From Halovivax gelatinilyticus (lineage in GTDB: Archaea; Halobacteriota; Halobacteria; Halobacteriales; Natrialbaceae), in the NCBI RefSeq assembly GCF_024300625.1, contig NZ_CP101322.1, positions 1,687,992 through 1,751,991 on the forward strand: 64,000 nt of DNA, in the 5' to 3' direction. Numbering within the stretch: the first letter of the stretch is position 1; each line of letters begins with the position of its first letter. Below are positions 11,301-36,057 of this stretch, piece by piece. The notes under the pieces are model-generated. The model was not told the DNA's origin. It saw only the letters and a program-made list of their open reading frames with translations, and did no database searches. The translations under genes and the position numbers were made by a program.

Positions 11301-14300
11301 GCCTCGGCGTCCAGAACGGGACTCGAAGGGCCGACCGTCTTCGGCGGCGCCGTCGAGGGCCAGGAGGACAGCCAGATGGAAGACGTCATCGTGCCCTGGA
11401 CGATCGACCCGAGCGTCGAGTTCGAGGGCCACTTCGGTGAGGACTTCTCGTTCGAGGAGGGGACCGTCCAGTCCGGCACCGACATCACCATTCTGCACGC
11501 AGCCGAACTCTTCGGTTGTGGGGTCTACGCCGAGGGCGGCGGCGGGATGACGGCCTCGTTCGACGTCGGCCCGGAGACGGACCTGAATCCCGGCGGCTCG
11601 CTTTCGGTGGACGGCGATATCGTCCTGGACTGTTTCGCCGATTTCGAGTTCGACCTCGGTCCGTTCGAAGGAGACGTCGGAAGCGGTGGCCTCGGTCTCC
11701 AGGCGACTGACGTACCCACGGGATCCGTCACGGTTAGCCCGCCGTCGGCACACGGACCGAACCCGCTGCCGAACGTCCCCGCCGTGGAGGACGACGACCT
11801 GGGCGAGGGTGACGTCGGCACGGACTCCCTCGCGACCGACGTCGAGCCGACCGATTCCGACGGGATCGACCTCGACCGGCTGACCGATCGTGAGTTCGAG
11901 GACACCCAGCCGGCGATCGCGACCGTCGATGAGGAACTGATCGTCGTGTACAGTGCACAGAACGAGTCCAAAGCGGCCACGGACGGTCGAGACCTTCGCG
12001 TCCGGACGCACAACCTGACCACCGGCACGTGGTCGGCCGTCGAGGACGTCACCGACGACGACGCGACCGACGAAACGCCCGCACTCGCCGCGAGCGAAGA
12101 CGGGACCGCCGTCGTCTGGTCGACGCTCGAAGACGCCCCGCCGATCGAGGAGGTGGAGACGCCCGCCGATCTCTTCGGTCACTACGAGATCGCCGTCGCC
12201 ATCGACGACGGTGCGGGCTGGAGTGACCCCGATCAGTTGACCGAGAGCGATCGGCGACAGCACAGCCCGTCAGTCGCGGCGATCGACGGTGGCTGGCTGG
12301 TCGCCTGGGAGTCGACCGCGGCGAACGGCTCCGACTCGAACGTCCGATACGCCATTCTGGACGAGAGTGGCGACGTGGACGAGATCGAAACGATTTCGAA
12401 CGCGTCTCACCCCGCCGTCGGCACTGACGGCGACGGCGCCACGCTCGCATATGCGACCGTCGACGACGTAGATGACGAGGTGGTCGTCACCGCAGCCGTC
12501 GACCACGAGGGGCTCACCGAGTCCCACAGTCACGCGGCGACGACCGTGACCGCGGTGGCGACCGCCGACGGCCGTACCGTCTGGGCAAACGCCAGCGGGA
12601 GTGACACGCACGTCTTCGACGCCGAAGGCGAGGGTAGCCCCACCGAGCTGGCGTTCGAATCCGGACTCACGACCGTTGACGAACTCGCCCTCGACGCACA
12701 CGGGGACGACACCGTGCTCACCTATCGCGCCCGCTTCGACGGGGGATCGACGTCCGATCTCGGTTACCGCCTCGACCGCGGCGACGGGTGGATCGCCGAC
12801 CACGCGTACGCGGAGGTATCCGACGAGAACCTGACCGCCTGGTACGCGGACGTGGCGGTCGGTGAGGGCGGCGACGCGTTCTACTCGGCGTTCGCCGTGC
12901 AGGAACTCGACCGAGCGGCCGTCAACGACGTATTCGTCACCGAACGAGCGTTCGCCCCGGCGTACACGATCGAGGCGAACGCGTCGGCGGCGGTGGCCGG
13001 CGACGAGTCGACGATCGAGTACGACCTCCGGAACGTGGGCGACCGTTCGTCCACCGATGACGTGACCGTCGTCATCGAGAACGCCACGGGCGTCGTCGAC
13101 GAACGCTCTCACGATCAGATCGCACCGGGCGAGACTGTCACGGAGTCCATCGACGCGACCGTCGACGAGCACGGAACGTTCGACCTCTCGGTCGACGACG
13201 GTGACGCAACGACCGATGGAGCCGGCACAGTCGGCACCTTCGTCGGTGCATCGACAGCATCGGGAACGGCCGAAGCGACGACGACCGTCGTCGCCGCGAC
13301 GCCGCACCTGTCGGTCGAATCGGTCGACTCGACGCTGGTCGAGGACGAAGACGGGGACGTGATCCAGGTCGACGCCGTGGTCGACAACGCCGGCGGCGCC
13401 ACCGCATCCGACGTGCCGATCGCGTTCGACGACGGCACCGAGACGATCGAGACCGTCGAACTCGACGCGATCGAACACGGCGAGAACGCGACCGCGACGG
13501 TCACGATCGATCCGGATCTGATCGACGCGTCCGTCGCCGACCGCGTCTCGATCGTGACCGACGAGTCGGTCGACGAGACGGCTGTCGACCGGGATCACCG
13601 TCCGGCCTGGTTCCTCCAGCCGGACCTGGCTGTCGGCGGGATAGAGTACCTCGACGTCGGCGGCGATCGAATCGCCGAGATTCTGGTCGCGAACCGCGGT
13701 CACGGTGGGGCGAACGCGACCGTTTCGGTCCGGACCGAATCCGGGGACGTCGTCGCTACCGCAACGGAGACCGTCGACGCGGCATCGGTCGATGCCCCGT
13801 CGTTCGAACCGATCGAGGTTCCGCTGGGATCGCTCCCGGCAAACGAATCGATCACCGTGGTGGCCGACGGTGACGTCCCCGACGCAGATCCGTCGACGAC
13901 GGGCACGACCGACACCGTCGGGCCGTTCACCGACGTCGACCGACCGTCGTTCGCGGTCGACCTCGTCGTCGACGAGATGGTCGCCCCGGGTGAGCCGCTC
14001 GACGTCACGCTCGACGTCAGAAATCCCGGCTACCGGGCCGACGAGCAACCGGTTTCGCTCTCCGTCGACGGCGCCCACTCGACGACTCGAACGATCGAAC
14101 TCGACGGCGGTGAAACGACGACCGAGACGATCGTCGTCGAACCAGAGACCGAGGCGGAAACGATCGACCTCTACGTCGAAAGCCTCCGTCCACAGGACGC
14201 GACGACGGTGTCCGTCGAGGCCGACGGGTCCGCGCCGCCGGCGCTGCCGCCGGCGCCGACGCCGGATCCAGCTGCGATTTCGCTCGTCGACCTCGACGTC

Positions 14301-14876: not shown

Positions 14877-17012
14877 CTAATTACGTCGATTTCCGGTCCG
14901 CGTGCCGACCGGCGCTGGCCGATCGTTCCGGGGTTCGTCTCGTTCGCCTCGACCCTCTCCAGCGCAACGACGATCGGATTCGACCGGTATCCTGACGGTG
15001 ACGGTCGTCCCCTCGCCCGGGGTCGATTCGAGCCAGATCTCGCCGTCGTGGACGTCGACGATCTTCTGGCAGATCGCCAGCCCCATCCCGGTTCCGTCGT
15101 CGGACCCCGTCTGCGGGCCGCGTTCGAACAGCTGAAAGAGGCGCTCCTGGTAGATGGGATCGATCCCGACGCCGTCGTCGCTGACCGAGAGTTCGGCGTA
15201 CTCGTCGGTCATACTGCCGGAGACGACGATGTGTGGGGCTTCGTCGCCGGCGTAGGCGAGGGCGTTCGCGATGAGATTCTGGAACAGCCGAAAGAGCAGG
15301 TGCTCGACGCCGTACACCGTCGGGAGGCGTTCGATCTCGACCGTCGCGTCGCGGTCGTCGATCTCGTATCGCAGGCCGTCTCTGACCGCCCTGACGACTC
15401 GGTCGCAGTCGACGGGTTCGAACGTCTCGCCCGCCGCGCCAATTCGTGAGTACGAGAGGAGGTCGTCGACCATCTCCTGGGCGCGACGCGTGTTCTCGCG
15501 CGCCACGTCGAGCAACTCCTGCTCGGTCGAGGTCGCGTTCTCGTCACTCGAAACGGCCGGTTCGACCGACTCGCTTGATCGCTCACCGTCCCGGTTTCGA
15601 GCCGTCGTTCCCGCCCTCGGTGTCGACTCTTCGCGACCGAGCAGCGAGAGGTATCGTTCGGTCGTTCGCAGCGGTCCGCGGAGGTCGTGTGAGATCACCG
15701 CCGCGAACGATTCGAGTTCCTCGTTCGACCGGCGCAATCGCGCTAGCGTGTCGTCGACGGCGGCTTCCAGTTCCCTGGTTTCGGTGACGTCTCTGAGGAC
15801 GACCGTCCGGCCGAGCGACGTCCCGCCCAGGTCCAGAACGGGCGTCGTCGAACACTCGATATAGCGCGTGCCGTCGCGCGTTTCGAGGTGTATCTCGCTC
15901 GTCGACGCGTGGTCGAGGATGTCCCCGTCGGATCCGGCGCCGTCGAGCGTCTCTTCGTCGGTCTGTTCGTCGTCGAATCCGATTGACTCGTCGTCGGGAT
16001 CGCGATACCGGGACGCGGTCGTATCGTCGACGAGCGACGACGCACCCTCGTGTTCGGCCGATCCGGACGACGCGTCCGGGCGACCGTCCGACCGGAGCGG
16101 ATCGCGATCTCGTCGATCGACCACCCGCGCGTCGGTCGGAAGCAGCGTCTCGAACGGACGGCCGATCGCCGGGGCGGCCTCCGTATCGAGCATCGCCGCC
16201 GCGGTGTCGGTACAGTCGACCACGCGGTTCGATCGATCGAGGACGACGATGCCGTCGTCTAACGTATCGACGACGAACGAGCGGGCGACCGGCGCGAGGT
16301 CGAACAGCCGGTAGTGATAGATCGCGACGAAGAAGATGATGCCAGTGAGGGTGAAGCTAAACGGGGTGAGATCGAGGTGGGAGAACGGACTGTAGCCGGC
16401 GTGGTAGACGACGTTCGTCGCCACCGCGACCGCCGCCCCGAGCAAGAGCAGGCTGACCTGGCGCCGGTAGACGCGTGGCGACCACACGAGCAGGTGTGCG
16501 AGGACGACGATCCCACCGAGCATCAGGCCGTAGCCGTAGGCGGCGTGAATCCAGAACGCGATGCCGAAGCCGTGATCCGAGACGAGGACGTCGCCGACGG
16601 TCATCAGTTCGATCGGCGATCGAACCAGGTGGTGGTACTCGTTCGTGACGACCAGCGCGAGGTAGCCGACGGGAATCGCAGAGAGCGCCCCGATCGCTCG
16701 ACGGGTCAGCACGTTCTCCCGGACGCCGAACTGCAGGGTGAAACAGAACCAGGCGACCGGGACGATCGCCACCCCGACGTGATTGACGTTGGCGAAGAAC
16801 CGGATCGTCGCCTCGTTCGCGCCGGCCAGCTGTAACGCGTAGCCGACGGCCCAGATCGTCGTGGCGGCCATGAGGACGGCGAACGTACTCGCGCCGGTGA
16901 CCTCCCGGTTTCGCCAGGCGTAGCCGCCGATCGTCGCCATGACTCCGGCGGCACCGAGTAGAATCGGCGTGTATATCGTGTACTCAAACTCCACTCCGAG
17001 CGTTCCGAGCAC
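14877..17012 (-). CDS. Membrane sensor histidine kinase (7TM + PAS + HisKA + HATPase)
   Basis: A 711-aa protein. Residues ~8-235 form about seven membrane helices of the histidine-kinase N-terminal 7TM type. A PAS-like domain follows (VVDTLDDGIVVLDRSNRVVD at its start) with a ~70-residue acidic insert. Next is a coiled linker and the phosphoacceptor box ISHDLRGPL with the His near residue 441. The catalytic domain shows an N box (NLIANALAYA), G1 (SDDGVGIDP) and G2 (GTGMGLAICQKI). A second Ser/Glu-rich insert separates the two HisKA helices. No response regulator lies beside it, which is common for haloarchaeal kinases. It is convergent with the giant surface protein. The stimulus is unknown; hydrophobic or membrane signals are plausible for the 7TM type. 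Confidence 0.93.
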   Translation of the reverse strand: MLGTLGVEFEYTIYTPILLGAAGVMATIGGYAWRNREVTGASTFAVLMAATTIWAVGYALQLAGANEATIRFFANVNHVGVAIVPVAWFCFTLQFGVRENVLTRRAIGALSAIPVGYLALVVTNEYHHLVRSPIELMTVGDVLVSDHGFGIAFWIHAAYGYGLMLGGIVVLAHLLVWSPRVYRRQVSLLLLGAAVAVATNVVYHAGYSPFSHLDLTPFSFTLTGIIFFVAIYHYRLFDLAPVARSFVVDTLDDGIVVLDRSNRVVDCTDTAAAMLDTEAAPAIGRPFETLLPTDARVVDRRDRDPLRSDGRPDASSGSAEHEGASSLVDDTTASRYRDPDDESIGFDDEQTDEETLDGAGSDGDILDHASTSEIHLETRDGTRYIECSTTPVLDLGGTSLGRTVVLRDVTETRELEAAVDDTLARLRRSNEELESFAAVISHDLRGPLRTTERYLSLLGREESTPRAGTTARNRDGERSSESVEPAVSSDENATSTEQELLDVARENTRRAQEMVDDLLSYSRIGAAGETFEPVDCDRVVRAVRDGLRYEIDDRDATVEIERLPTVYGVEHLLFRLFQNLIANALAYAGDEAPHIVVSGSMTDEYAELSVSDDGVGIDPIYQERLFQLFERGPQTGSDDGTGMGLAICQKIVDVHDGEIWLESTPGEGTTVTVRIPVESDRRCAGEGRGERDEPRNDRPAPVGTRTGNRRN

Positions 17013-18360: not shown

Positions 18361-19665
18361 ATGGACTCTACTACCAGAAACCCTGACGAGATAGACGACA
18401 GACTCGACCGACTCGAATCACTCATTGAAACACAACAAGAGACGATCGAGGAACTGACAACCCGTAACGAGGCCCAGCAGGAGACGATCGAGCAACTCGA
18501 AGCGATAACGGACGAGCGACCGACTGGGGGTAAACTTAGCGAACTCCCGGCAGTTAGCAGGCGGTCGGCACTGGCAGGGCTCGCCGGTCTGGCCGGTCTG
18601 GGGGCGATGTCTTCGTCGACGAGTGCGACAACCCCACAGGGACAGGTCGGCACCGAAGACCACCCGCTCAACGCGTTGCACACGGTCGACCTCGAGGCGA
18701 CCGAAATCGCCGCGGAGAACGACGGTGACGACGATGAGACGACCGCGATACAGGGTCACGCGAGCGCGTTGGACGTCGAGGCGGCTACGAAAGGCGTCGC
18801 GGGAATCGCGGATGCGGACGCCGACAACGCCCCAGTAGAGGAGATCGTTCCTGCCGGCGTCGAAGGAACGGCGACGGGCGATGGAGCCACGCACGGCGTC
18901 AGGGGCGTCTCGGAGTCGATTAACGGCCGCGGTATTGCGGGATTCGCGACCTCGGACGACTACGACCATTCGACGTTCACGGGGTCGGGGATCGGTGTGG
19001 TGGGCGTCACCGATCGTAGCGGCGATGACGACGGTATCTCCGACTCCGGCGGCGTCTTCGGGATGGCAACAGCCGAAAGCGGAACTGCCTACGGCGTTAT
19101 CGGGCGAACCGAGTCCCCGGACGGATGGGGTGTTCGCGGGATGGACATGTCCGGGGACGGGCACGGGGTATACTCGTACGGTGACAGCAAAACGGATGGC
19201 GATCACGAAACCACCGGAGATACCGTTCTCGGCGGCGAACTATCCTTTTCTGACGACACTCCACAACGGACCGCCGGTCCGATCGCGAAGGGATCGATCA
19301 ACTCCGATGGATCGATCGAGAACGCAGTCAACGTTAGCGATGCCGAGTGGAACGAAGGCGAGGAGCGATATCGAATCACGCTGACCGATGAGAATTATTT
19401 CTATGACGATTATGTTACCACAATAACTCCGACGACGTCGGCATTGTGGCGGGTAACGAGTAATTCCAACCAAATCATCGTCGAGTTCGAGGACACCGAC
19501 GGAGATCCTCTCCAAAGAGATTTCCAGTTCGTGACGTTCGATCTCCCGAGTGGAACGGAGACGACCGCAGCCGACGCCAGAACCGGTGAGAGTACTGACG
19601 ATACCGAGGCTGACGACGAGCGGGCGTCGTCGAGCGCGGGCTCAACACCCGATTCCCATGAGTGA
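18361..19665 (+). CDS. Coiled-coil/Tat-like repeat surface protein, cassette 1 'adhesin'
   Basis: A 434-aa protein. Residues ~9-50 form a charged coiled coil with repeated QQETIE heptads. A twin-arginine-type segment follows unusually late (SRRSALAGLAGLAGLGAM, about 66-83). The exported part carries loose ~20-30-residue repeats of the GVxG...GxGV type (GVRGVSESINGRGIAGFAT, YGVIGRTESPDGWGVRG), as seen in fibre-like bacterial proteins. A C-terminal beta domain (about 305-400) follows, then an acidic Ser/Thr tail. The last 8 bases overlap the next gene (ATGAGTGA), so the pair is translationally coupled. It is paralogous to 23209-24693 in layout and in the N-terminal region. Function is unknown; a trimeric fibre or adhesin is my inference from repeats plus coiled coil. 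Confidence 0.8.
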   Translation: MDSTTRNPDEIDDRLDRLESLIETQQETIEELTTRNEAQQETIEQLEAITDERPTGGKLSELPAVSRRSALAGLAGLAGLGAMSSSTSATTPQGQVGTEDHPLNALHTVDLEATEIAAENDGDDDETTAIQGHASALDVEAATKGVAGIADADADNAPVEEIVPAGVEGTATGDGATHGVRGVSESINGRGIAGFATSDDYDHSTFTGSGIGVVGVTDRSGDDDGISDSGGVFGMATAESGTAYGVIGRTESPDGWGVRGMDMSGDGHGVYSYGDSKTDGDHETTGDTVLGGELSFSDDTPQRTAGPIAKGSINSDGSIENAVNVSDAEWNEGEERYRITLTDENYFYDDYVTTITPTTSALWRVTSNSNQIIVEFEDTDGDPLQRDFQFVTFDLPSGTETTAADARTGESTDDTEADDERASSSAGSTPDSHE

Positions 19666-21091
19666 TCGACGGTTCAGCGGGACTCAACACGCTGGGGCCA
19701 TCCTCGCCGTCGTGATCGTTCTCGGTCTCACCGTCGCCGTCCCGGGAACGGTAACGGCCGACTCGAGTGCCGTCGACCTCGAGTGTACCGAAGGCGACGG
19801 CGGCGGTCCCGTCTACCTGGCCAATTCGGGCCTCGCGGTCGTCGACAACGACTCCGCACCGGACGAAGCCTATCCGTCGTTCCCTGACAACGAGACCATC
19901 CACCTGGATGACGACGATTATCCGAACGTCACGTTCAGCGCGGGCGGCGACGCCGAACTCCGACTGGAGAACCGGACGACCGAGCGGATCTGTCTCGCCG
20001 CGGTGGACGCGACGGAGTACGAGATTCTAATCGATCCGGCCAACCTGTCCGCCGTCACGGTCAACGGGTCGGTCGACGGACTCGCGTTCGGCGACCTCGA
20101 CTTCGACGTCGACGACGAACCCGAGGTGGTTTACAACGCGAGCGATGCGATCTCGCTCACCATCCACGACACCGGCCTCGAGGAGGGCGATTCGATCGCG
20201 ATCGAGAGCCTCGATTCGGACGCCGTCGACGCGGAGGTCGACGCCGATTCGAACGGCTCCCTCCTGCTGGATCTCCCGGCCGGCGAGCACCGCCTGTCGC
20301 TGTCGACGGCGTCTTCCGGTGGCGGTCTCCCGGGTCTGCCGCCACCGCCGCCGGACGAGGAACCGGCCGCGTTCGAGATTTCCGACGTCGAGATCGACCC
20401 CGCGTCGGTCGATCCGGGCGACTCGGTGACGGTGAGCGCCACGGTGACGAACGTCGGCGAGGAGACGGGCGGGCACGCGGTCGAACTCGCGGTCGACGGC
20501 GACGTGGTGGCCGAAGAGTCGGTGCACCTCGCCGGTGGCGGCTCCGAGCGGGTCACGTTCACGGTCGTGCTCGACGAGCCGGGGGCGAAATCGCTCTCGC
20601 TCGACGGCGAGTCGATCGGCAGCGTCGCGGTCGCCGATCCGGACGACTCCACCGGCGAGTCGGACGACGACGGCGGAACCGAAGCGCCCGACTCGGACGA
20701 CGCGGACGAGCCGCTCGACCCCGAGACCGACTCGGAGGGTGACGACGGGTCGTCGTGGTTCCCGATCGCGCTCGCCGCCGGCGTCCTGATCGCCGTCGGT
20801 CTCGGCGGCGCCTACCACCTCGGCTACCTCGGCGGCTCGGACGCGACGCGCGGTGGGCCGGCCCCGTCGGCCGACCGGTCGGCTGCGGATGACGGACCAG
20901 AAGACGACCGGCCCGACGATACCCGAGATTCCGACGAACGGACGGCCGAGTCGACCGACGATCGCTCGCCGACGGAGGCGGTCGGGGAGACCGACGGCGA
21001 AACCGGCGACCCAGCCGAGACCGACGGAGACGTTGCCGGCGACGATCTGGATGCCGACGACGCCGTCGAGCCGCCGGATCGATCCGACTAG
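19658..21091 (+). CDS. Membrane-anchored partner protein, cassette 1
   Basis: A 477-aa protein starting at the ATG that overlaps the upstream stop; the longer frame from 19550 would lie inside the adhesin gene. A signal peptide (AGAILAVVIVLGLTVAVPGTVTA) precedes a ~170-residue conserved domain beginning LECTEGDGGGPVYL with FPDNET, which I do not recognise. Then come the linker STASSGGGLPGLPPPPPD, a CARDB-like sandwich (about 240-325), an Asp/Glu-rich stretch, a membrane helix (WFPIALAAGVLIAVGLGGA) and a long acidic cytoplasmic tail (~95 residues). The tail is absent from the cassette 2 homologue. Strict pairing with the repeat protein suggests it anchors or displays that protein. Confidence 0.85.
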   Translation: MSDRRFSGTQHAGAILAVVIVLGLTVAVPGTVTADSSAVDLECTEGDGGGPVYLANSGLAVVDNDSAPDEAYPSFPDNETIHLDDDDYPNVTFSAGGDAELRLENRTTERICLAAVDATEYEILIDPANLSAVTVNGSVDGLAFGDLDFDVDDEPEVVYNASDAISLTIHDTGLEEGDSIAIESLDSDAVDAEVDADSNGSLLLDLPAGEHRLSLSTASSGGGLPGLPPPPPDEEPAAFEISDVEIDPASVDPGDSVTVSATVTNVGEETGGHAVELAVDGDVVAEESVHLAGGGSERVTFTVVLDEPGAKSLSLDGESIGSVAVADPDDSTGESDDDGGTEAPDSDDADEPLDPETDSEGDDGSSWFPIALAAGVLIAVGLGGAYHLGYLGGSDATRGGPAPSADRSAADDGPEDDRPDDTRDSDERTAESTDDRSPTEAVGETDGETGDPAETDGDVAGDDLDADDAVEPPDRSD

Positions 21092-21167
21092 GCGGGGTCC
21101 GGCGACTACTTCGTCGCGCTTCGTTCGAATCAGCAAACGTATAAGAGGTGATTCCGTGCTCTCGGCC

Positions 21168-21935
21168 ATGCAGCTAGACTGGACCGGGATCGACCACGTC
21201 ACGAAGGTCGATCCGGAAAAACCCATGCCGGCCGATCCGTCGTCGCTGCTTTCGGCGACCGACCTGGTCATGGTCGGCGGCTCGGACGGCGTCACCGAGG
21301 CGAACACCCTCGAGGCGATCGAGGCGGTTCGCGAGGCGGCCCCCGACGTCCCGATCTTTCAGGAACCGTACGACGCCGCCCAGGTCACGAAGGACACGAT
21401 CGACGCGGTCGACGTGCTCTCGGTGCCGGCCGTCTACAACGGCGACATGGACCACTTCGTCGGCAAGCACCTCTCGATGTTCGCCAAACTAGCGAGCAAA
21501 CCGTCGTCGGTCCTCGGGACGAGTCTCCCGGTCGTGGGTAGCGTCATCGAGTCGAAAGGAGAAGAGATCGCCGCCGAGCTCACTGAGAAGATCGTCGGCG
21601 AGGGCTACGTCATCCAGCACGTCGACTCGGCGGCGGCACAGACCGCCGGCGTCAGGGAACCGTTTTCGACCGACGAAGTGGCCGGCGCCGCGCTCGCGAC
21701 CGAGACGTTCTACGACTTTCCGATCTTCTACGTCGAGTACTCAGGCACCTACGGCGGCCCCGAGGACGTCGAGGCCGCGGCAAACCAGCTAGAAGAGACG
21801 GTTCTGCTCTACGGCGGCGGGATCGACTCGCAGGAAAAGGCCGAGGAAATCCTAGACGCCGGGGCCGACGCAATCGTCGTCGGCGACTGCTTCCACGACG
21901 ATCCGGCGAAGTTCGAATCGACGATCCCGCGGTAG
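21168..21935 (+). CDS. Geranylgeranylglyceryl phosphate synthase (PcrB-type)
   Basis: A 255-aa TIM-barrel enzyme that joins geranylgeranyl diphosphate to sn-glycerol-1-phosphate, the first ether-bond step of archaeal membrane lipid synthesis. Family marks are the early VMVGGSDGVTEAN segment, VPAVYNGDMDHFVGKH, the YVEYSGTYGG loop and the C-terminal phosphate-binding YGGGIDSQEKAEEI followed by VVGDCFHDDP. The ATG at 21168 gives the family's usual length; the frame runs open further upstream only as a shadow of the preceding gene. A TATA-like ACGTATAAGAG lies about 25 bp upstream. It is a housekeeping gene lying between the two surface cassettes and is unlikely to be functionally tied to them. 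Confidence 0.93.
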   Translation: MQLDWTGIDHVTKVDPEKPMPADPSSLLSATDLVMVGGSDGVTEANTLEAIEAVREAAPDVPIFQEPYDAAQVTKDTIDAVDVLSVPAVYNGDMDHFVGKHLSMFAKLASKPSSVLGTSLPVVGSVIESKGEEIAAELTEKIVGEGYVIQHVDSAAAQTAGVREPFSTDEVAGAALATETFYDFPIFYVEYSGTYGGPEDVEAAANQLEETVLLYGGGIDSQEKAEEILDAGADAIVVGDCFHDDPAKFESTIPR

Positions 21936-22075
21936 GCGACGGTTCGGTTCGGTGGTTTCTGCCGTCACTCGGTCAGCTTTCCGGTTCGACGTCGGTGCCG
22001 TCGGTCGTCGGTCGGTCGATTCGAGGGGATCGCCCGCGACGAAACACGTTTCGCCCGTCACGACGACCGTTCGGT

Positions 22076-22693
22076 ATGGGCGAATTCGACGTCGAAATCG
22101 TACTGTTCGACGGATTCGACGAACTGGACGCGGTCGGTCCGTACGAGGTGTTCGACACGGCGCGCGCGTTCGGCGCCGACCTTTCGGTTTCGCTGGTCAC
22201 GCTCGCCGAGCGCGAACGGGTGACCGCCAGTCACGGCCTCCGGGTCGAACCGGACGGGACGCTCGCCGAGCCAGCGGAATCGTCGACGTTGCCCGACCTG
22301 CTGGTCGTCCCCGGTGGCGGGTGGACGACGGCCGACGGGGGCGTTCGCCGAGTCGTCGACGACGGCGCACTTCCGGACGCCGTCGAGGGCCATTACGCAG
22401 CCGGGACGACCGTCGCCTCCGTCTGTACCGGCGCGATGATCCTGGCCGAGGCCGGGTTACTCGACGGTCGGCCGGCGACCACCCACCGCGTCGCCCTCGA
22501 CGATCTCGCGGACGCGGGTGCGACGGTCCGCGAGTCGCGGGCCGTCGACGACGGCGACGTGCTGACGGCCGGAGGCGTCACCGCCGGGATCGACCTCGCG
22601 CTGTGGATCGTCGAACGGGAGTTCGACGTCGAAATCGCAGACGCCGTCGCGACGGAACTCGAACACGAACGCCGGGGAGAGATCGCCCGCTGA
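22076..22693 (+). CDS. DJ-1/PfpI family protein
   Basis: A 205-aa cytoplasmic protein of the class I glutamine amidotransferase-like fold. The nucleophile elbow is SVCTGAMILAEAG with Cys117, and an early acidic residue lies in GFDELDAVGPYEVF, as in the isonitrile-hydratase and AraC-N-terminal-like branch of DJ-1/PfpI. LVVPGGGW supplies the oxyanion loop. The ATG at 22076 is chosen because the family motif (FDVEIVLFDGF) starts right after it; the frame upstream is Arg-rich and not conserved-looking. The substrate cannot be predicted; members include chaperone/deglycase-like proteins and isonitrile hydratases. Confidence 0.9.
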   Translation: MGEFDVEIVLFDGFDELDAVGPYEVFDTARAFGADLSVSLVTLAERERVTASHGLRVEPDGTLAEPAESSTLPDLLVVPGGGWTTADGGVRRVVDDGALPDAVEGHYAAGTTVASVCTGAMILAEAGLLDGRPATTHRVALDDLADAGATVRESRAVDDGDVLTAGGVTAGIDLALWIVEREFDVEIADAVATELEHERRGEIAR

Positions 22694-23208
22694 AGGCGTT
22701 ACTGTCCGACCGATCGCGTATCGACGCTCTAAATCCGCACGTTCTACGCTTCCGGCCGCTGATCGGAGTACGTACGGCTGCGTGACGGTCGGGATCGGAG
22801 ATGACGGTCGGCTCCGAATACGATGTTCGTTTCACGTCGCGAAACACTGTTTCGTCCCGTAATATGAGGTGGATATCGTCGAAATCGAGGCGCGTAATCG
22901 GGCCAGGGAGGTTCTGAGGGCACACTGCCTTCCGAACCGGTACACTGGCACGTGGACGATACCAATGACTGACACCACACTTTTACGAAAACGATTCAGC
23001 GAAGATCGGTCGAAAACTGTCTCTGCTGTAAAGTCCGACGACACGCAAGCGCTTTCTCGGCAACGCTGCCAAGAGTGGGTGTCGAACCGTTGGGGGACGG
23101 TCAACGGCGCTGTCGAAGCCCGTGTCGAATCCGACCGTGGGGACGAGAACGGACCGATCCGAACGCGCGACGCGCGAGCGCTGGCACCATCGCTGGGGGT
23201 GCTGGCCG
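22694..23208. other. Long leader/intergenic region before cassette 2
   Basis: A 515-bp gap. It contains the conserved 37-bp motif (22833-22869). It also holds an 83-codon frame from the ATG at 22965 (ATGACTGACACC) whose TGA (23214-23216) lies inside the start of the next gene. Its product (MTDTTLLRKRF...) is Arg-rich and not clearly coding. No RNA gene was recognised. Confidence 0.4.
22833..22869 (+). promoter_or_regulatory. Second copy of the 37-bp surface-locus motif
   Basis: About 30 of 37 positions match 5323-5359 without gaps (GCGAAACA...TGT...CG...CCCGTAA...ATGAGG). Here the element is ~340 bp before the cassette 2 adhesin start, which implies either a long leader or another transcript beginning here. 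Confidence 0.5.
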
Positions 23209-24693
23209 ATGACTGAGGATTCGTCCATCGAAGCCCGCATCGAGCAGCTCGAGTCGATTATTCGAGACCAGCAGGAGACGATCGAACGGGTAGCTGACGA
23301 GGTCGATCGCGCTCGCACCGAACCGTCGGCGCGCCGAACGATCGGTCGTCGCCGGGCGCTCCAGGCGGCCGGCTTGGCCGGACTCGTCGGCCTCGGTGCG
23401 ACGTCGGTGTCGGCGAGTGAAGCCGATCCATCGGGGGAAATTGGGACCGAGACGCGGCCGCTGGAATCTGTGTACACCCAGCGGTTACAGACCGTTCCAG
23501 ACGGTGAGACTCCGTTCGACCTGTTCGCCGGTGGTGACCGAATCGCTCGATTCGGGCCGAACGGTTCCGAGTCTCCGAACCTGTTGTTCGGCGAGGAGAC
23601 CAACGAGTACGCCGTGGATGGGCAAGGACAGACGATCAGCGGCGGGCGAAACAACGTCACGGACGGGAACAATTCGGTGGTCGGCGGGGGTTCCGGCAAC
23701 GAGGCACTGATGCACAGCGCGACGGTCTCGGGTGGACAAGAGAACGTTGCAGAGTCGACGTTCGCAACCGTCGCGGGCGGAAATAGCAACCACGCCACGA
23801 ATTCCGGCGCGACGGTCGGAGGCGGCAGTTCGAACGAGGTCACTGGTGATCGGGCGGTGATCGGTGGCGGCTCCAATAACAGTGCAAACGGGACCGAGTC
23901 TGCGATCGGGGGTGGTTCCGATAACAGTGCAAACGGGACCGAGTCTGCGATCGGGGGCGGTTCCGATAACAGTGCCAACTCAATCGGCTCGACGATCGGC
24001 GGCGGGGGCCAAAACTCCACGAGCGGCAACTACTCCACGGTCGGCGGTGGCCAGGAAAACGAAATTGATGGTACCGAGGCGACGATTGCTGGGGGAAGTT
24101 CGAACACCGTCGGCGCACCGTGGGCAACGGTGGGTGGCGGCGATCAGAACGAGGTGACCGGGGAACGGGCGACCGTTTCCGGAGGCGACTACAACGTTGC
24201 GTCGGCTTTTTGGGCGACGATTCCGGGCGGGTCCCACGCCAAAGCCAATTCGTCCGGTCAGTTCGCGTATGCGAACGGCGACTTCTCCGAACCCGGTGAT
24301 GCGCAGGCCTCGATGTACGTCCTTCGGAACGAGACGGACGATCGCGAACAGACCGTCGGGTTGTTTCTCGACCGATTCGATGAACAGATCGTCGTTCCGG
24401 CCGACCGATCCATCGCGTTCACCGCACAGGTCCTCGGTCGAACGTCTAATCACGATGCGTCGTCCTGGTGTGTCAACGGCGTCGTGACCAACGATGGGTC
24501 GTCGTCGACGCTCAGTACCGAGACCGTCAGCGAATTCGACGACGAGGACCTGGGAAGCGTCGACGTCGGCTTCGACGATGGCGAGGATTGTCTCGAGTTT
24601 TCGGTCACGTCGAGCGATGGCAACTTCCGGACCACCCAATGGGTGGCGACGATCAGAACGACCGAGACGGAGTTCGCGAACGGAGGTTCATGA
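23209..24693 (+). CDS. Coiled-coil/Tat-like protein with YadA-head-like 15-residue repeats, cassette 2
   Basis: A 494-aa protein. Residues ~5-38 are a coiled coil (EQLESIIRDQQETIERV), closely like cassette 1. A twin-arginine segment (IGRRRALQAAGLAGLVGLGA) sits at about 46-64. From ~143 to ~353 there are about 13 repeats of 15 residues with the consensus GGGSxNxAxGxxATV, the pattern of YadA/Hia head beta-rolls and related phage-fibre proteins. The C-terminal ~140 residues (from QASMYVLRNETDDREQTVGLFLD) form a probable beta domain like that capping fibre proteins. The ATG at 23209 is preceded by GGGGGTG. The stop is followed one base later by the GTG of the partner gene. By family knowledge such repeats trimerise; an extracellular trimeric fibre is therefore the leading guess. 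Confidence 0.82.
   Translation: MTEDSSIEARIEQLESIIRDQQETIERVADEVDRARTEPSARRTIGRRRALQAAGLAGLVGLGATSVSASEADPSGEIGTETRPLESVYTQRLQTVPDGETPFDLFAGGDRIARFGPNGSESPNLLFGEETNEYAVDGQGQTISGGRNNVTDGNNSVVGGGSGNEALMHSATVSGGQENVAESTFATVAGGNSNHATNSGATVGGGSSNEVTGDRAVIGGGSNNSANGTESAIGGGSDNSANGTESAIGGGSDNSANSIGSTIGGGGQNSTSGNYSTVGGGQENEIDGTEATIAGGSSNTVGAPWATVGGGDQNEVTGERATVSGGDYNVASAFWATIPGGSHAKANSSGQFAYANGDFSEPGDAQASMYVLRNETDDREQTVGLFLDRFDEQIVVPADRSIAFTAQVLGRTSNHDASSWCVNGVVTNDGSSSTLSTETVSEFDDEDLGSVDVGFDDGEDCLEFSVTSSDGNFRTTQWVATIRTTETEFANGGS
23869..24003 (+). repeat. 45-bp tandem repeats coding the beta-roll turns
   Basis: Units start at 23869, 23914 and 23959. The first two are almost identical (GGTTCCGATAACAGTG, then CAAACGGGACCGAGTC), and the third diverges after 24 bases. 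They encode GGGSxNSANGTESAI. The near identity of codons shows recent slippage or unequal exchange, so copy number may vary between strains. Confidence 0.85.
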
Positions 24694-24694
24694 C

Positions 24695-25924
24695 GTGGCA
24701 TCGAACTCGACGGAAGGGGGCCGAGACACACGGGACACGACGCGGTCGGGTCGGGTGTTCGTGGGCCTGCTCGTTAGCGTACTCGCGGTCAGTCTACTGG
24801 CCGTCGGCATCGCCGGTCCGGCGCTCGCGGCCGATTCGTCCATCGAGTGCGCCGCTGGATCCGGCGGCGGGCCGGTCTACGTGACCGATAGCGGTCTCGA
24901 GGTCGCCGACAACACGACCGCGGCCGACGAAGCGTATCCCGCGTTCCCGAACGACGAGACCGTCGCGCTCGAGGACGCGAACGTCTCGTTCGCGGCGGCT
25001 GGTCTGGCCGAGCTTCGCCTCGAAGCGAGATCGGTCGGTCTCACCTGCGTCGCGGGGGTCAACGCCTCGGCGAACGACGTCCTGATCGACCCCGCGGAGG
25101 GGCCGGAGCTGACGATCAACGGCTCGCTCGAGGCGCTCTCGTTCGGGCCTCTGGATTTCGAGTCCGACGACGCTGACCTCACCTACGACGCGAACGACTC
25201 CGTTACGCTCACCCTCGGCGACACCGGACTCGACGAGGGTGAAACGGTCGATGTCGAGAGCCTCGATTCGGACGCCGTCGACGCGGAGGTCGACGCCGGT
25301 TCGAACGGTACGCTCTCGGTGGAGCTCCCGGCCGGTATTCACCGGCTGTCGCTGTCGACGGCGTCTTCCGGCGGCGGCCTCCCGGGTCTCCCGCCACCAC
25401 CGCCGGACGACGGTGAACCGGCCGCGTTCGAATACGCAGAAGCCGCCGTCGAGCCGACCGAGATCGACGTTGGCGAGGAGATCACGGCGTCGACGACGGT
25501 GACGAACGTCGGCGACGAGACGGGCTCTCACGTGGTGAAACTGCTCGTCGACGGCGATGTGGTCGCCGAAGAGAGCGTCTCCCTCGCCGGCGGCAGTTCC
25601 GAGACGGTCACGCTCACGACGGTGCTCGACGCCGCTGGAACGGTCGCGATTTCGCTCGGCGACGAATCGGCCGGGAGCGTGACCGTCACCGACGAGGAAC
25701 CCGGCTCGGACGACGATTCCGGCTCGCCCGATCCGGGGTCGGACGATGCTGGCTCCGACGCCGGTACCGACGACGGCGAACCGACGCCCGATCCCGAGTC
25801 CGACGGCGACGAAGATAGCGGGACGCCCTGGCTCCTGATTACGTTCGGCCTTCTCGCACTCGTGACCGCGGGCGTCGGCGTGGCGTACTCGCAGGGCTAC
25901 CTGGACCCGTACCTACCGGGTTGA
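24695..25924 (+). CDS. Membrane-anchored partner protein, cassette 2
   Basis: A 409-aa homologue of 19658-21091. I use the GTG at 24695 because GGAGGT ends 7 bases before it and the frame further upstream is only a shadow of the adhesin gene. Layout: signal helix (VFVGLLVSVLAVSLLAVGIAGPALA), conserved domain beginning IECAAGSGGGPVYV with FPNDET, linker STASSGGGLPGLPPPPPDD (nearly identical to copy 1), CARDB-like sandwich, Asp/Ser-rich stretch, one membrane helix (WLLITFGLLALVTAGVGVAYS) and a very short tail ending PYLPG. The long cytoplasmic tail of copy 1 is missing. Role inferred: partner or anchor for the adjacent repeat protein. Confidence 0.85.
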   Translation: MASNSTEGGRDTRDTTRSGRVFVGLLVSVLAVSLLAVGIAGPALAADSSIECAAGSGGGPVYVTDSGLEVADNTTAADEAYPAFPNDETVALEDANVSFAAAGLAELRLEARSVGLTCVAGVNASANDVLIDPAEGPELTINGSLEALSFGPLDFESDDADLTYDANDSVTLTLGDTGLDEGETVDVESLDSDAVDAEVDAGSNGTLSVELPAGIHRLSLSTASSGGGLPGLPPPPPDDGEPAAFEYAEAAVEPTEIDVGEEITASTTVTNVGDETGSHVVKLLVDGDVVAEESVSLAGGSSETVTLTTVLDAAGTVAISLGDESAGSVTVTDEEPGSDDDSGSPDPGSDDAGSDAGTDDGEPTPDPESDGDEDSGTPWLLITFGLLALVTAGVGVAYSQGYLDPYLPG

Positions 25925-26117: not shown

Positions 26118-26148
26118 ATGATGCCCGTTGCGTCGAAACGACGTTCAA

Positions 26149-29100
26149 ATGTCTGAAAGTCCGAATTGTCTCGACGACGTGCTCGAAACCGATCGGGCCG
26201 TTCGACGTTCGAACCGGGAACGCACTACCGAACCTCGCGTACGGAGCCATCTCTCCGGCTCCGTCCGAATCGGAAAATGGTGTCTACTCGCCGTTCTCGT
26301 GATACTGTCTCTCGCAACCGTCGCTATCGCAGGGGCCGGTCTCGTCGAGGCCGCGTCCGAGACGGAGCCGCCGATGCCAGGAGACGGGACCGAAGACGAC
26401 CCGTACGAAATCTCGAACGCCACGGAGTTACAGCAGATGGAGCTGAACCTTTCGGCTCACTACGTGCTCGTGGCGGACGTGACCGCGGACGGTTCGTTCG
26501 AACCGATCGGTTCCGATACCGATTCGGCGTTCACCGGAACCGTAGACGGGAACGGTCACACCATCTCGGGACTGACGATCGACGAGAACGCCGATTACGT
26601 CGGCCTGTTCGGCGTCATCGGCGACGGCAGTCAGATTACGGACCTCGCGCTCACCAGCGTCGACGTCCGTGGCGACGAACACGTCGGCGGTCTCGCCGGC
26701 CTATCCGAGGGTGGGACCGTCCACGGTGTCACGGCGACGGGAACCGTCTCGGGAGATTCCAGCCGGGTCGGCGGACTGCTCGGGGCGAACGAGAAGGGAA
26801 CGGTCGAAGACAGCCACGCTTCGGTCTCGGTCTCTAGCGGTTGGAGCAGCGCTGGCGGCCTGGTCGGCGTCAACGACGGATGGATCGTTCACTCCTCGGC
26901 GGACGGAACCGTCTCCGGCATCCATCAACGGGTCGGCGGACTGGTCGGCTGGCACACGAATTTCGGCGAAATCACCTTTTCACACGCGACTGGTGCGGTA
27001 TCGTCGGAATCCAGCCGGGTCGGTGGTCTCGTCGGCCAGGCCGACGAACGGGCTGACATAACCGATTCGTACGCGACCGGAAGCGTCTCGACGCAATCTA
27101 ATCAGGCTGGCGGGCTGGTCGGCACAACCGCCGACGCCTATACGAGGATCGAGCGATCGTACGCCACCGGGAACGTCGCCGGGGTATCGTCGGATTCGGG
27201 AGCCGTCGGCGGTCTCGTGGGTGATCACGGGGGACACACCATCGAGCAATCGTACGCCTCGGGTTCGGTCGCCGGGAGCGACGGGATCGGCGGTCTCGTG
27301 GGAAGCAAAAGCGGCGATATCATCGGCTCCTTCGCCGTCGGAACGGTGTCTGGCAGCGAAAACGTGGGTGGTCTCGTCGGTCAAAATTACGGGACTGGAA
27401 CGGTGACGGACTCGTACTGGGACGTTCCGGCGACCGAACAGGAGTCGTCCGACGGTGGTATCGGATTCGGGTCGCTCTCGGATACTGCACCTGCCGCCGA
27501 GATGATCGGCGAGAACGCCGTCGCCAATATGACCGGGCTGGATTTTGACGTGATATGGGACGTACGGTCCGATCCCGACGAGTACCCGGCGCTCGCACAC
27601 GAGCGATTCGAAGAGACCGTTCCGATAAAATCCTGTGACGTGTATGCGGAAATCGACGTATCAGGTGTCTACGAGCTACAGAACAACGTCTCGAGCGACG
27701 GAACGTGTATCGAGGTCACCGCCGACGACGTGGTTCTGGACGGGCAGGGTATGACGATATCCGGCGTGGATAACCCGACGTCGGGTGAGTACGCCGTTCA
27801 CGTCGATGGGGCGACCAACGTGACGGTGCGAAACGTCACGATCGAGACGTGGGATCAGGGGACCGGCATCTACGTCGAACAGGCGAGTGACGTGACGGTA
27901 CGAAACGTCGAGGCCACGGATAATCGATTTGCCGTCCGAAACCGGATCGTCGACGGGTTCACGATCGATTCGGTGCGCGCCGAAGGCGGAAGTGCGCCGG
28001 GTCTCGAACTCGTCGACGCCAGCAATGGCATGGTGACCGACGTCACCGTCATCGGGACCGACAGTGAAGACTGGGGTGGGGCAATCAGACTGAGCGAGCG
28101 GTGGAATAGTGGAACGTCGAACGTCACGCTGGACAACGTGACCGCGATGGATTCGAAGAGTGCCGGTATCTCCGTCGAGGATGGTGATGTCTGGGATATC
28201 TCCATTACGAACTCGACCGCCGTCGGGAGCGATGGATCGGGGATCGCGATCGACGTAGCTGCTGTCGACGTCACCGACAGCCGGGTACTCGACAACGGTG
28301 CGTACGGAATCCGGCTCGGCGAGGCCAGCGAAACGACCCTCACGAACATCGAATCTCGGGAGAACGCCGACGCTGCGCTTCGAGTCGACGGCTCGCCCGA
28401 CCTGGCGATCGAGGCGTTAGATATCGGCGACTCGACGGCGGCCAACACGACGCTGTCGATTGCGGAGGCAGTTGACGTCGAACTCGGAAGCGTGGCGGAC
28501 CCAGCCGATCCGCCAGCCGATCTCGCCCCCATCGAGCGGTACGTTACTGCTGAGGCGCTCTCCGACGACGGATTGCTCGACGTTTCGGTCGGATACGAGA
28601 CCGAGGACGTCGGTGCAATCGACGAATCGACGCTCTCGCTGTGGGCCGACGACGGCGACTGGACCGAAATCGAGGAATCGACCGTCGACACCGGTGAGCA
28701 GACGGTCAGTGCCATGATAGAGACGTTTTCGACCGTTGGCGTGTTCGGTGAGGGCGACGTCTCGCCGTCGGCGTCGTTCACGTTCGAGCCCGATCAGCCG
28801 ACCACCGGCCAACAGGTTACGTTCGACGCCACCGATTCGTCGTCGCCACACGGCGACATCGTCGAGTATCGGTGGGACTTCACCGGCGATGGGACGTTCG
28901 AAGATACGACCGCCGACCCAGAGGCGACCTGGACCTTCGACGAGGCGGGCGAACAAAACGTGACGCTCGAAATCGAAGACGAAACGGACGAGACCGCCGA
29001 GACGACGGAGACGGTCGCCGTCGAGGAATCGGACGACCCCGAACCGAACCTCTCCGTCGTCGATGCGACGTTCGATCCCGACGCGGTGGCTGTCGGCGAC

Positions 29101-30390
29101 CCCATCACTGTCACGGCGACCGTCGAGAACACGGGTGAGGCGGCCGGTGAACACACCGCCGCCCTCGAACTCGACGGAACGGTCGAGGACACCGAAACCG
29201 TCGCGGTCGAGCCGGGAGAGACCGAGGTGGTCGAATTCACGCACACGTTCGAGGCCGCCGGCGAGTACGAGGTGTCCGTCGACGGGTTCGATGCGGGAAC
29301 CGTGTCGGTGAGCGGTCCGGAACCGGTAATCGAGGTGACGGACGTCTCCCTCAGCGACGACACGGTCGACGAAGGTTCGGACGTGACCGTCACGGCCACC
29401 GTCGAGAACACGGGTGAGGCGGCCGGTGAACACACCCTCGAACTCGAACTCGACGGAGCGGTCGAGGACGCCGAAACCGTCGAGGTGGAGCCGGGTGAAA
29501 CCGAGGAGGTCGAATTCACGCACACGTTCGAGGCCGCCGGCGAGTACGAGGTGTCCGTCGACGGGTTCGCTGCCGGAACTGTAACGGTGAACGAGGCGTC
29601 GACCCCGTCGCCACCTCCCTCCCCCAGTCCGGTCCCGGACATCTCGGTAGTGGACGCCTCAGTCGAGGAGACGACGGCTGTGGCGGGCGAGAACGTAACG
29701 GTCACCGTCACGCTCGAGAACGCCGGCGATGCGGACGGGGACTACGAGGTCACGCTGAACGTCGACGGCACCCAGGTTGATTCGGCGACCGCATCCGTCG
29801 GTGCCGGCGAGACGACCGATCTCTCGTTCGTCCACACGTTCGAGGAGGCTGGCGAGTACGAGGTTCGCGTCAGCGACGTCCAGGCAGTAACGGTCACCGT
29901 CGAAGGCGCTTCCGACGACCTCACGCCCGCGTGGTTCGATGTCACCGGGCTCCCGCCGTCAGTAGCCATCGACGAACCGGGCGACAGTGCCAGTATCTCG
30001 GCGACTGTCGAAAACACCGGCGACGAACCAGACACGCAGGCCGTCGAGGTCACGCTCGACGGTGACGTCGTCCACGAAGCGGAGATCACACTGGAAGCAG
30101 GCGAAACGCACACCGTGTCTCTCGATCTCGAGACCGAAGCGCTCGATTACGGTGCGACGTACGAGTACACCGTCTCGACCCAGGACGACAGCGAGACCGG
30201 CGTACTGGACGTCGGGGACCAGTCCGCCGGAGACGGGGACGAGTCCGATGCGGGCGGAGACGGCACGGACGATGACGCGATGGACGACGGGCTCCCGGGC
30301 TTCGGCGTTACGGCGGCGGTGTTCGCGCTCGTATCCGCGCTCGTCCTCGCAACGCGCGGCCGGCGAAGCCGCTCGTCGTCGCCTCGATAG
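26149..30390 (+). CDS. Giant GLUG/beta-helix/PKD/CARDB surface protein with PGF-CTERM anchor
   Basis: A 1413-aa extracellular protein. The ATG at 26149 is preferred over an in-frame TTG at 26128. A hydrophobic signal segment lies after ~40 basic residues (CLLAVLVILSLATVAIAGAGL). Residues ~80-425 start with GDGTEDDPYEISNATELQQM and hold many GLUG-type units (GGLVG, SYATGSV), also found in bacterial adhesins. A NosD-like beta-helix spans ~497-777, a PKD domain ~870-960 (YRWDFTGDG), then four CARDB-like modules to ~1350, the first two nearly identical. The end is DDGLPGFG, a membrane helix and a basic tail, the PGF-CTERM signal for archaeosortase A. It follows cassette 2 in the same direction. 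Likely role: adhesion or S-layer-associated binding (inferred). Confidence 0.9.
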   Translation: MSESPNCLDDVLETDRAVRRSNRERTTEPRVRSHLSGSVRIGKWCLLAVLVILSLATVAIAGAGLVEAASETEPPMPGDGTEDDPYEISNATELQQMELNLSAHYVLVADVTADGSFEPIGSDTDSAFTGTVDGNGHTISGLTIDENADYVGLFGVIGDGSQITDLALTSVDVRGDEHVGGLAGLSEGGTVHGVTATGTVSGDSSRVGGLLGANEKGTVEDSHASVSVSSGWSSAGGLVGVNDGWIVHSSADGTVSGIHQRVGGLVGWHTNFGEITFSHATGAVSSESSRVGGLVGQADERADITDSYATGSVSTQSNQAGGLVGTTADAYTRIERSYATGNVAGVSSDSGAVGGLVGDHGGHTIEQSYASGSVAGSDGIGGLVGSKSGDIIGSFAVGTVSGSENVGGLVGQNYGTGTVTDSYWDVPATEQESSDGGIGFGSLSDTAPAAEMIGENAVANMTGLDFDVIWDVRSDPDEYPALAHERFEETVPIKSCDVYAEIDVSGVYELQNNVSSDGTCIEVTADDVVLDGQGMTISGVDNPTSGEYAVHVDGATNVTVRNVTIETWDQGTGIYVEQASDVTVRNVEATDNRFAVRNRIVDGFTIDSVRAEGGSAPGLELVDASNGMVTDVTVIGTDSEDWGGAIRLSERWNSGTSNVTLDNVTAMDSKSAGISVEDGDVWDISITNSTAVGSDGSGIAIDVAAVDVTDSRVLDNGAYGIRLGEASETTLTNIESRENADAALRVDGSPDLAIEALDIGDSTAANTTLSIAEAVDVELGSVADPADPPADLAPIERYVTAEALSDDGLLDVSVGYETEDVGAIDESTLSLWADDGDWTEIEESTVDTGEQTVSAMIETFSTVGVFGEGDVSPSASFTFEPDQPTTGQQVTFDATDSSSPHGDIVEYRWDFTGDGTFEDTTADPEATWTFDEAGEQNVTLEIEDETDETAETTETVAVEESDDPEPNLSVVDATFDPDAVAVGDPITVTATVENTGEAAGEHTAALELDGTVEDTETVAVEPGETEVVEFTHTFEAAGEYEVSVDGFDAGTVSVSGPEPVIEVTDVSLSDDTVDEGSDVTVTATVENTGEAAGEHTLELELDGAVEDAETVEVEPGETEEVEFTHTFEAAGEYEVSVDGFAAGTVTVNEASTPSPPPSPSPVPDISVVDASVEETTAVAGENVTVTVTLENAGDADGDYEVTLNVDGTQVDSATASVGAGETTDLSFVHTFEEAGEYEVRVSDVQAVTVTVEGASDDLTPAWFDVTGLPPSVAIDEPGDSASISATVENTGDEPDTQAVEVTLDGDVVHEAEITLEAGETHTVSLDLETEALDYGATYEYTVSTQDDSETGVLDVGDQSAGDGDESDAGGDGTDDDAMDDGLPGFGVTAAVFALVSALVLATRGRRSRSSSPR

Positions 30391-36029: not shown

Positions 36030-36057
36030 CAATACCGTCTACACTCTATCTCCTCGT

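Follow-up and report, generated by a model that had tools for sequence, protein, structure and literature searches.

A recurrent gene pair in haloarchaea combines exchangeable fibre modules with a constant, membrane-anchored partner

A 64,000-nucleotide stretch of the Halovivax gelatinilyticus genome (contig NZ_CP101322.1; hereafter, the window) carries two cassettes in which a gene for a fibre protein with a coiled coil and a twin-arginine translocation (Tat) signal (A) is directly followed by a gene for a membrane-anchored partner (B). We refer to the N-domain of B as BN and to the N-module of A as AN. The A-B association recurs in about 20 cellular loci of at least seven genera, as well as in virus loci, and the fibre changes from copy to copy behind a constant module. 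With moderate confidence, we propose that the pair is a two-component surface display system, in which a Tat-exported trimeric fibre A would dock on the membrane-anchored receptor B.

Results and discussion

All four genes of the window are intact open reading frames (ORFs) (A1-B1, 18361-21091; A2-B2, 23209-25924). The ATG of B1 at 19658 gives an 8-bp overlap with the A1 stop, and the GTG start of B2 at 24695 lies 1 bp past the A2 stop, in agreement with the same order and tight coupling described in the first-pass annotation. B1 and B2 are 53% identical over 400 amino acids (E=4e-111) and collinear up to their transmembrane (TM) segments. Besides the shared N-domain, they have in common an 18-residue linker, STASSGGGLPGLPPPPPD, which had been called nearly identical and shows no differences at all. 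A1 and A2 are alignable only in their first ~104 residues (38% identity, E=7e-15). This stretch comprises the coiled coil and the twin-arginine (RR), both noted before, as well as the GT..PL segment, and stops just past a GTE..PL motif; pairwise comparison found no fibre match beyond it. In A1, residues 10-49 were predicted by AlphaFold as a confident helix (per-residue confidence, pLDDT, of 80-96). The repeat parts indeed belong to different types. Tandem Repeats Finder (TRF) gave a unit of 45 bp (15 residues) for A2, whose repeats match UspA1 head structures (PDB 3pr7, E=9.7e-22), while a motif count for A1 found G[VI]xG eight times and the YadA type not at all.

The two cassettes had been presented as a duplicated pair. 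When the B1 N-domain was compared with the whole genome (3.70 Mb, one contig), a third BN copy appeared at 848.7-849.4 kb, 0.86 Mb from the window. Its A3 gene lies directly upstream of B3, again with an 8-bp overlap, and encodes a coiled coil, a Tat signal, UspA1-type repeats and a C-terminal Peptidase_S74 domain (UspA1_rep and S74 both over the Pfam cut-offs). The cassettes are thus not merely a duplicated pair. As the A1 fibre is nearer to fibres of other genera than to that of A2, "duplication" describes the scaffold and not the whole cassette.

The distribution of BN, a domain of about 170 residues, was determined with a 24-row profile in 392 genomes of the haloarchaeal order (E<=1e-3). 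Two false matches from early profile rounds, L027 (a biotin ligase) and L026 (a Cdc48-type protein), were dropped ahead of building the census profile. BN was matched in 38 of the 392 genomes, a few of the weakest matches being doubtful. No family in Pfam or NCBIfam matched it, and a phylum-wide sample of 197 genomes gave no convincing relative outside the order. Scans of genome contigs and viral contigs with BN or B proteins yielded no confirmed locus. A PDB search with BN returned only insignificant matches, among them VP4 of entry 6h9c (E=0.21), and PADLOC had no match to A or B.

The BN loci are of a cell type and a virus type, the latter described below. An A-type gene lies nearby (within about 4 kb), mostly upstream, in 20 of the 22 cell-type loci; it is downstream at L049 and separated from B by an IS605-type insertion at L039. 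The two loci without a nearby A are L038, in genome G208, and L085, on a 6.7-kb contig. The reverse search used an AN profile covering the 53-residue module from RR to GT..PL. Strong matches (>=62 bits, nearly full length) numbered 25, in 18 of the 392 genomes; other matches reached at most 42 bits and mostly covered the generic Tat signal only, except those to A-like genes of virus-type loci. A BN gene lies within 10 kb of 23 of the 25 strong AN genes (exceptions in G215 and G208), so that partners commonly lacking an upstream repeat protein, the observation that would have told against the pair as first described, were not what the search found. BN is also present in 17 of the 18 A-bearing genomes (hypergeometric P ~1e-19, phylogeny ignored), and scanning all 125 genomes of the window's family gave the same picture. 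The 8-bp overlap of A1-B1 and A3-B3 is repeated in G213, and the 1-bp gap of A2-B2 in G046.

Of the two AN exceptions, G215 carries a decayed cassette (L131:5395-6144), in which a deletion has joined the A N-module, via the remnant of a C1q-like tail, to a CARDB-like domain with a PGF-type C-terminus/TM; its sequence points to an ancestral A-B pair. G208 has a single A gene and a single BN gene, unlinked, and its B adjoins a cystathionine-synthase gene beside which the congener G043 carries A-B. In another arrangement, two different A genes stand in tandem ahead of one B (A-A-B; L041:6341-9231, minus strand), which suggests that several fibres may share one anchor.

A and B could also be independent neighbours, A being held by an uncleaved Tat hydrophobic segment with its coiled coil in the cytoplasm and B being an unrelated member of the same surface-protein island. 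The island does contain other large surface proteins (a NosD/CARDB protein of 3119 amino acids and a GLUG protein of 1420), and the A helix predicted by AlphaFold runs through the Tat segment. However, the wide pairing and its conserved translational coupling, the joining of the A N-module to a B-like CARDB/TM end in the decayed copy of G215, and the AxA sites behind the hydrophobic region of A proteins make this explanation quite improbable.

The first-pass annotation had also suggested that the fibre is exchangeable on a constant scaffold, and the comparison of fibre and BN identities bears this out. The A1 fibre is 68% identical to that of G213, yet the neighbouring BN is only 40% identical to that of B1; A1 and A2 fibres share 24%, yet their BN domains share 58%. 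G046 has both fibre types, its GVxG fibre being 66% identical to that of A1, and of its two BN domains, the one next to the beta-roll A is nearer to the B1 BN (62%) than is the one next to the GVxG A (55%). At least three changes of fibre type are required on the BN tree, and forcing the BN rows of the A1 and G046 GVxG fibres into one clade is rejected by the approximately unbiased (AU) test (p-AU 7.4e-5). Fibre and scaffold similarity are therefore decoupled, and co-inheritance is rejected. The same site can also hold different cassettes: the cassette upstream of the gene for GGGP synthase (GGGPS) is of the GVxG type in the window and A2-like in G101 (A 78% and B 76% identical to A2 and B2), while three congeners show GGGPS-PfpI-HAD with no cassette.

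At least four kinds of displayed module are found behind the same N-module. A3 and most other A proteins combine beta-roll and S74, A2 a beta-roll and another C-terminal domain, and A1 GVxG repeats and a further domain. In L037, GVxG repeats precede a C1q/BclA-like domain just under the Pfam cut-off, and the G208 A protein appears by sequence to have a beta-helix and a LamG-like domain. Seven A proteins (A3 and six others) have Peptidase_S74 scores over the gathering cut-off; the domain is absent from A1 and A2. Against PHROG, the A protein of L043 matched tail-fibre families with E-values as low as 5e-27; no firm phage relative was found for the C-terminal domains of A1 and A2. The folds of S74, C1q and UspA1 heads are known from other proteins to be trimeric, from which we infer by analogy that A is a trimer.

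RR is invariant in 13 of 13 aligned A proteins, as are a G, the GT and a P of the lead-in. The Tat n-region is long in the A proteins examined (about 36-110 residues) and usually contains a coiled coil. A small-x-Ala signal-peptidase motif (VxA/AxA-type) closes the hydrophobic stretch ahead of the GT motif, which would place the start of the mature chain close to the constant GQxGTxxDPLxxLY. If this site is used, the coiled coil would be a discarded part of the signal peptide, and most simply it would act in the cytoplasm, for instance by trimerising A ahead of Tat export.

B consists of a signal peptide, BN, a Pro-rich linker, CARDB and a C-terminal TM segment. The number of CARDB domains varies among relatives (two in L039 and L041, none in some), and the G208 B appears, by sequence, to terminate with a PGF-type anchor. 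Three genomes that share one genus code, g44 (L044, L046 and L048), have BN joined within one ORF to the 7TM region of a histidine kinase, followed by PAS, HisKA and HATPase (in L044, Pfam scored HisKA_7TM at 47 bits and HATPase_c at 50; L046 and L048 carry equivalent ORFs), and a second 7TM kinase gene overlaps this ORF downstream. This architecture shows that BN is able to form the outward-facing part of a receptor.

These fusions could be taken as the primitive state of a contact-sensing pair, in which A would be a ligand-binding fibre and BN a receptor ectodomain reporting the state of A inward, the TM-anchored B proteins using a separate kinase. The second overlapping kinase gene fits this explanation and, weakly, so do the HisKA_7TM kinase 1.3 kb upstream of A1 and another beside B in G208. 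We nevertheless regard this reading as unlikely: most B proteins have only a single TM segment, the fusion is limited to one genus code, and the window's genome has six HisKA_7TM genes, so adjacency may be chance.

At the remaining, virus-type loci, BN belongs to a long protein that in its central and C-terminal parts matches p12 of the Haloferax lemon-shaped virus LSV-48N. Such p12 homologues with an N-terminal BN were found at 13 loci (E 1e-19 to 1e-87), several of which are also syntenic for p16, p11, p10 and p8. Most have an A-like gene with an acidic or helical n-region, RR, the motif GTIGT..DPL..IYVDDL and a C1q-like or beta-helix domain; alternatively, a short A-like gene is followed by a separate LamG or beta-helix gene. 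LSV-48N itself gave no BN match, and no A-like gene was seen within the stretch of its genome examined. The most abundant supernatant/virion protein of LSV-48N is reported to have a C-terminus like an SSV19 tail protein and to resemble a beta-sandwich at residues 365-549 (PMC12714723); among the proteins examined, p12 would fit it best by length and content. The pairing of AN and BN in cells and in relatives of lemon-shaped viruses suggests one common way to display binding proteins, and in the LSV-related proviruses the pair is a probable receptor-binding module.

Provirus-like relatives of LSV-48N with homologues of p16, p12, p11, p10 and p8 occur at L050, L052, L090, L093, L094 and L096, in several haloarchaeal genera. 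At L087 (G265:C4), a 76-kb contig has four copies of the BN/p12-type gene, three of them exactly 14,077 bp apart, and the chromosome has one more; this is probably a repeated or concatenated virus-like element of ~14 kb.

The virus link raises the possibility that the cellular cassettes are a domesticated virus module, that is, a receptor-binding pair captured by the host or left by a provirus and kept for conflict with viruses, as a decoy or superinfection block, rather than for adhesion. BN is common to the p12-type tail proteins of LSV-48N-syntenic proviruses, usually with an A-like gene, and S74 and beta-roll modules are phage tail-fibre modules. Cell-type B proteins, however, lack the p12 C-terminal part and its TM segments, having CARDB and a TM segment instead, and p12, with its central Ig/DUF region, used as a phmmer query (E 1e-3) matched none of the cell-type B proteins compared (window, L034, L036, L037, L041, L043, L044). 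Moreover, the cassettes examined adjoin housekeeping genes (GGGPS, cystathionine synthase) and no virus genes. On the BN tree, cell-type and virus-type sequences stand on opposite sides except for one unresolved row, so any capture would be old, and a single cellular BN clade is compatible with the data (AU test, p-AU 0.18). On this evidence, domestication seems improbable.

Our preferred reading, two-component surface display, builds on the pairing, the coupling, the conserved signal and lead-in, the trimeric-fold modules, the anchor and the fibre exchange described above. It further supposes that the coiled coil trimerises, that the signal is cleaved and that A touches BN, with cell-cell or surface adhesion as the most likely function. 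We hypothesize that the coiled coil of the extended Tat n-region would nucleate the association of three A chains in the cytoplasm and that the trimeric fibre would fold there, helped by the C-terminal S74 chaperone or C1q-type trimeriser where present. The folded fibre would then cross the membrane by the Tat pathway, whose signal is seen in the sequence, and would be cut by signal peptidase at the VxA/AxA site, leaving GQxGTxxDPLxxLY at the mature N-terminus without the coiled coil. B would be exported via Sec and held by its C-terminal TM segment, with BN facing outward on the Pro-rich linker and CARDB spacer, where it could dock the constant N-terminus of the A trimer. Comparative genomics shows that recombination exchanges the fibre beyond the constant module between scaffolds, one platform thus presenting different binding heads. 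In some genera the platform is coupled to a 7TM histidine kinase, and docking or fibre contact may also be sensed.

Several points weigh against this proposal. AlphaFold left BN unresolved (pLDDT 30-47), as well as A1 past its coiled coil; its models of B2, B1 and A1 were usable only for CARDB, TM and coiled coil. Phage tail fibres have a similar, general lead-in motif, so the GT..PL segment may be conserved for the sake of folding and not docking. Since G208 keeps B where its congener has A-B and carries its only A gene unlinked, some B proteins may work alone or in trans. Finally, the A-B linkage could partly be due to shared regulation or island hitch-hiking rather than contact. It is tempting to go further and view BN and the A lead-in as a docking code of both haloarchaeal cells and lemon-shaped viruses, with interchangeable Tat-exported trimeric fibres, the coiled coil as a disposable trimerisation tag and, in some lineages, a kinase-wired receptor as a fibre-triggered contact sensor. 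We advance this joint reading only tentatively, with rather less than even confidence.

To our knowledge, archaeal surface adhesins besides type IV pili are poorly known. The cassettes resemble trimeric autotransporter adhesins (YadA, UspA1; type Vc) through the beta-roll heads that A2 and A3, by sequence, have and A1 lacks (3pr7; PF18792) and through the accompanying coiled coils. However, archaea do not have the outer membrane in which type Vc barrels sit, and no Pfam match to the C-terminal YadA-type beta-barrel anchor was found in A1, A2, A3 or the other A proteins scanned. The cassettes also differ from type Vc adhesins in having a Tat instead of a Sec signal, a coiled coil before and not after the export signal and, as proposed, an anchor provided by a separate partner. 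Phage tail fibres with S74 resemble A in the C-terminal Peptidase_S74 of some A proteins and in the L043 tail-fibre match, whereas A is chromosomal, Tat-exported and coupled to a membrane-anchored BN protein, with no tail genes near the cell-type copies. Among LSV-48N relatives, provirus p12 homologues carry an N-terminal BN beside an A-like Tat protein, while LSV-48N p12 has no BN.

VARTIG of Thermococcales is likewise an archaeal recombining surface locus of Ig/CARDB fold with a variable displayed part, but there the C-terminal Ig domain of one large protein varies, whereas here the variation lies in a separate Tat-exported A (Makarova et al. 2021, PMC8416519). That survey of archaeal CARDB neighbourhoods reported nothing closely like VARTIG elsewhere (PMC8416519). 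The SSV19 tailspike VP4 of fuselloviruses (PMC12042106), compared by description and not by sequence, is similar as a spindle-virus tail protein acting on the host surface. No description of the A-B pair was found in the full-text literature searched, a scope that mostly left out subscription journals.

The cassettes thus form a compact family with a constant platform and a swappable fibre, present in about 5% of the haloarchaea sampled within the order. They make testable the Tat export of trimers pre-assembled by a cleavable coiled coil, the ways in which archaea display and exchange binding heads, and the sharing of a docking domain by cells and viruses. Little is known of the entry proteins of haloarchaeal lemon-shaped viruses, and the pair provides a candidate for their receptor-binding module.

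Table 1. Features of the A1-B1 and A2-B2 cassettes (window coordinates)
Feature	Position	Strand	Evidence
A1, coiled-coil/Tat/GVxG-repeat fibre protein, 434 aa	18361..19665	+	ORF; AN profile E=1.6e-20
A1 N-terminal coiled coil, upstream of Tat signal	18391..18507	+	AlphaFold helix 8-51, pLDDT up to 96
A1 twin-arginine signal RRSALAGLAG...STSA, residues 67-89	18559..18627	+	Sequence; A-protein alignment
A1 constant lead-in motif GQVGTEDHPLNALHTVDLEA, proposed docking segment	18640..18699	+	G, GT, P invariant in 13 A proteins
A1 GVxG-type repeat region	18856..19140	+	Motif count; 65-68% identical to G046 and G213 fibres
A1 C-terminal domain	19270..19554	+	Marginal similarity to cyanophage tail fibre, E=0.08
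B1, membrane-anchored partner, 477 aa	19658..21091	+	8-bp overlap with A1
B1 N-domain (BN)	19784..20308	+	Profile match E=4.7e-62
B1 linker STASSGGGLPGLPPPPPD	20303..20356	+	Identical to B2 linker
B1 CARDB domain	20387..20602	+	PF07705 E=1.9e-8, over gathering cut-off
B1 C-terminal transmembrane segment, then Asp-rich tail	20756..20830	+	Sequence
A2, coiled-coil/Tat/YadA-UspA1-like beta-roll fibre protein, 494 aa	23209..24693	+	AN profile E=9.6e-22
A2 N-terminal coiled coil	23227..23313	+	A1 alignment
A2 twin-arginine signal RRRALQAAGLAG...SVSA	23347..23415	+	Sequence; A-protein alignment
A2 constant lead-in motif GEIGTETRPLESVYTQRLQ	23434..23490	+	A-protein alignment
A2 15-residue beta-roll repeats	23629..24249	+	3pr7 E=9.7e-22; TRF 45-bp unit
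B2, membrane-anchored partner, 409 aa, GTG start	24695..25924	+	ORF; B1 comparison
B2 N-domain (BN)	24848..25360	+	Profile match E=9.8e-61
B2 linker STASSGGGLPGLPPPPPD	25355..25408	+	Identical to B1 linker
B2 CARDB domain	25445..25696	+	PF07705 E=1.3e-7; AlphaFold pLDDT 72-87
B2 C-terminal transmembrane helix	25829..25903	+	AlphaFold helix 379-399

Genomic surroundings of the cassettes

Together with two giant proteins encoded on the plus strand, the cassettes make up a surface-protein island. The first giant protein (5385-14744, 3119 amino acids) is of NosD/beta-helix/CARDB type and the second (26128-30390, 1420 amino acids) has GLUG, beta-helix, PKD and four CARDB domains. The HisKA_7TM histidine kinase gene upstream of A1, one of the six in the genome, lies at 14877-17012 on the minus strand. 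Paralogous HTH-FilR1-nSTAND NTPase5-TPR proteins flank the cassette region, all on the minus strand (1310-5215, 32136-36032 and a partial ORF at 2-1186), and a further paralogue is divergent from the A2-like cassette of G101 (L035:3-3626, minus strand), as if these regulators travelled with the cassettes in this genus. An IS200-type Y1 transposase gene (PF01797; 30552-30965, plus strand) is located in the island of 22.7-36.2 kb that parts PfpI from its usual neighbour HAD.

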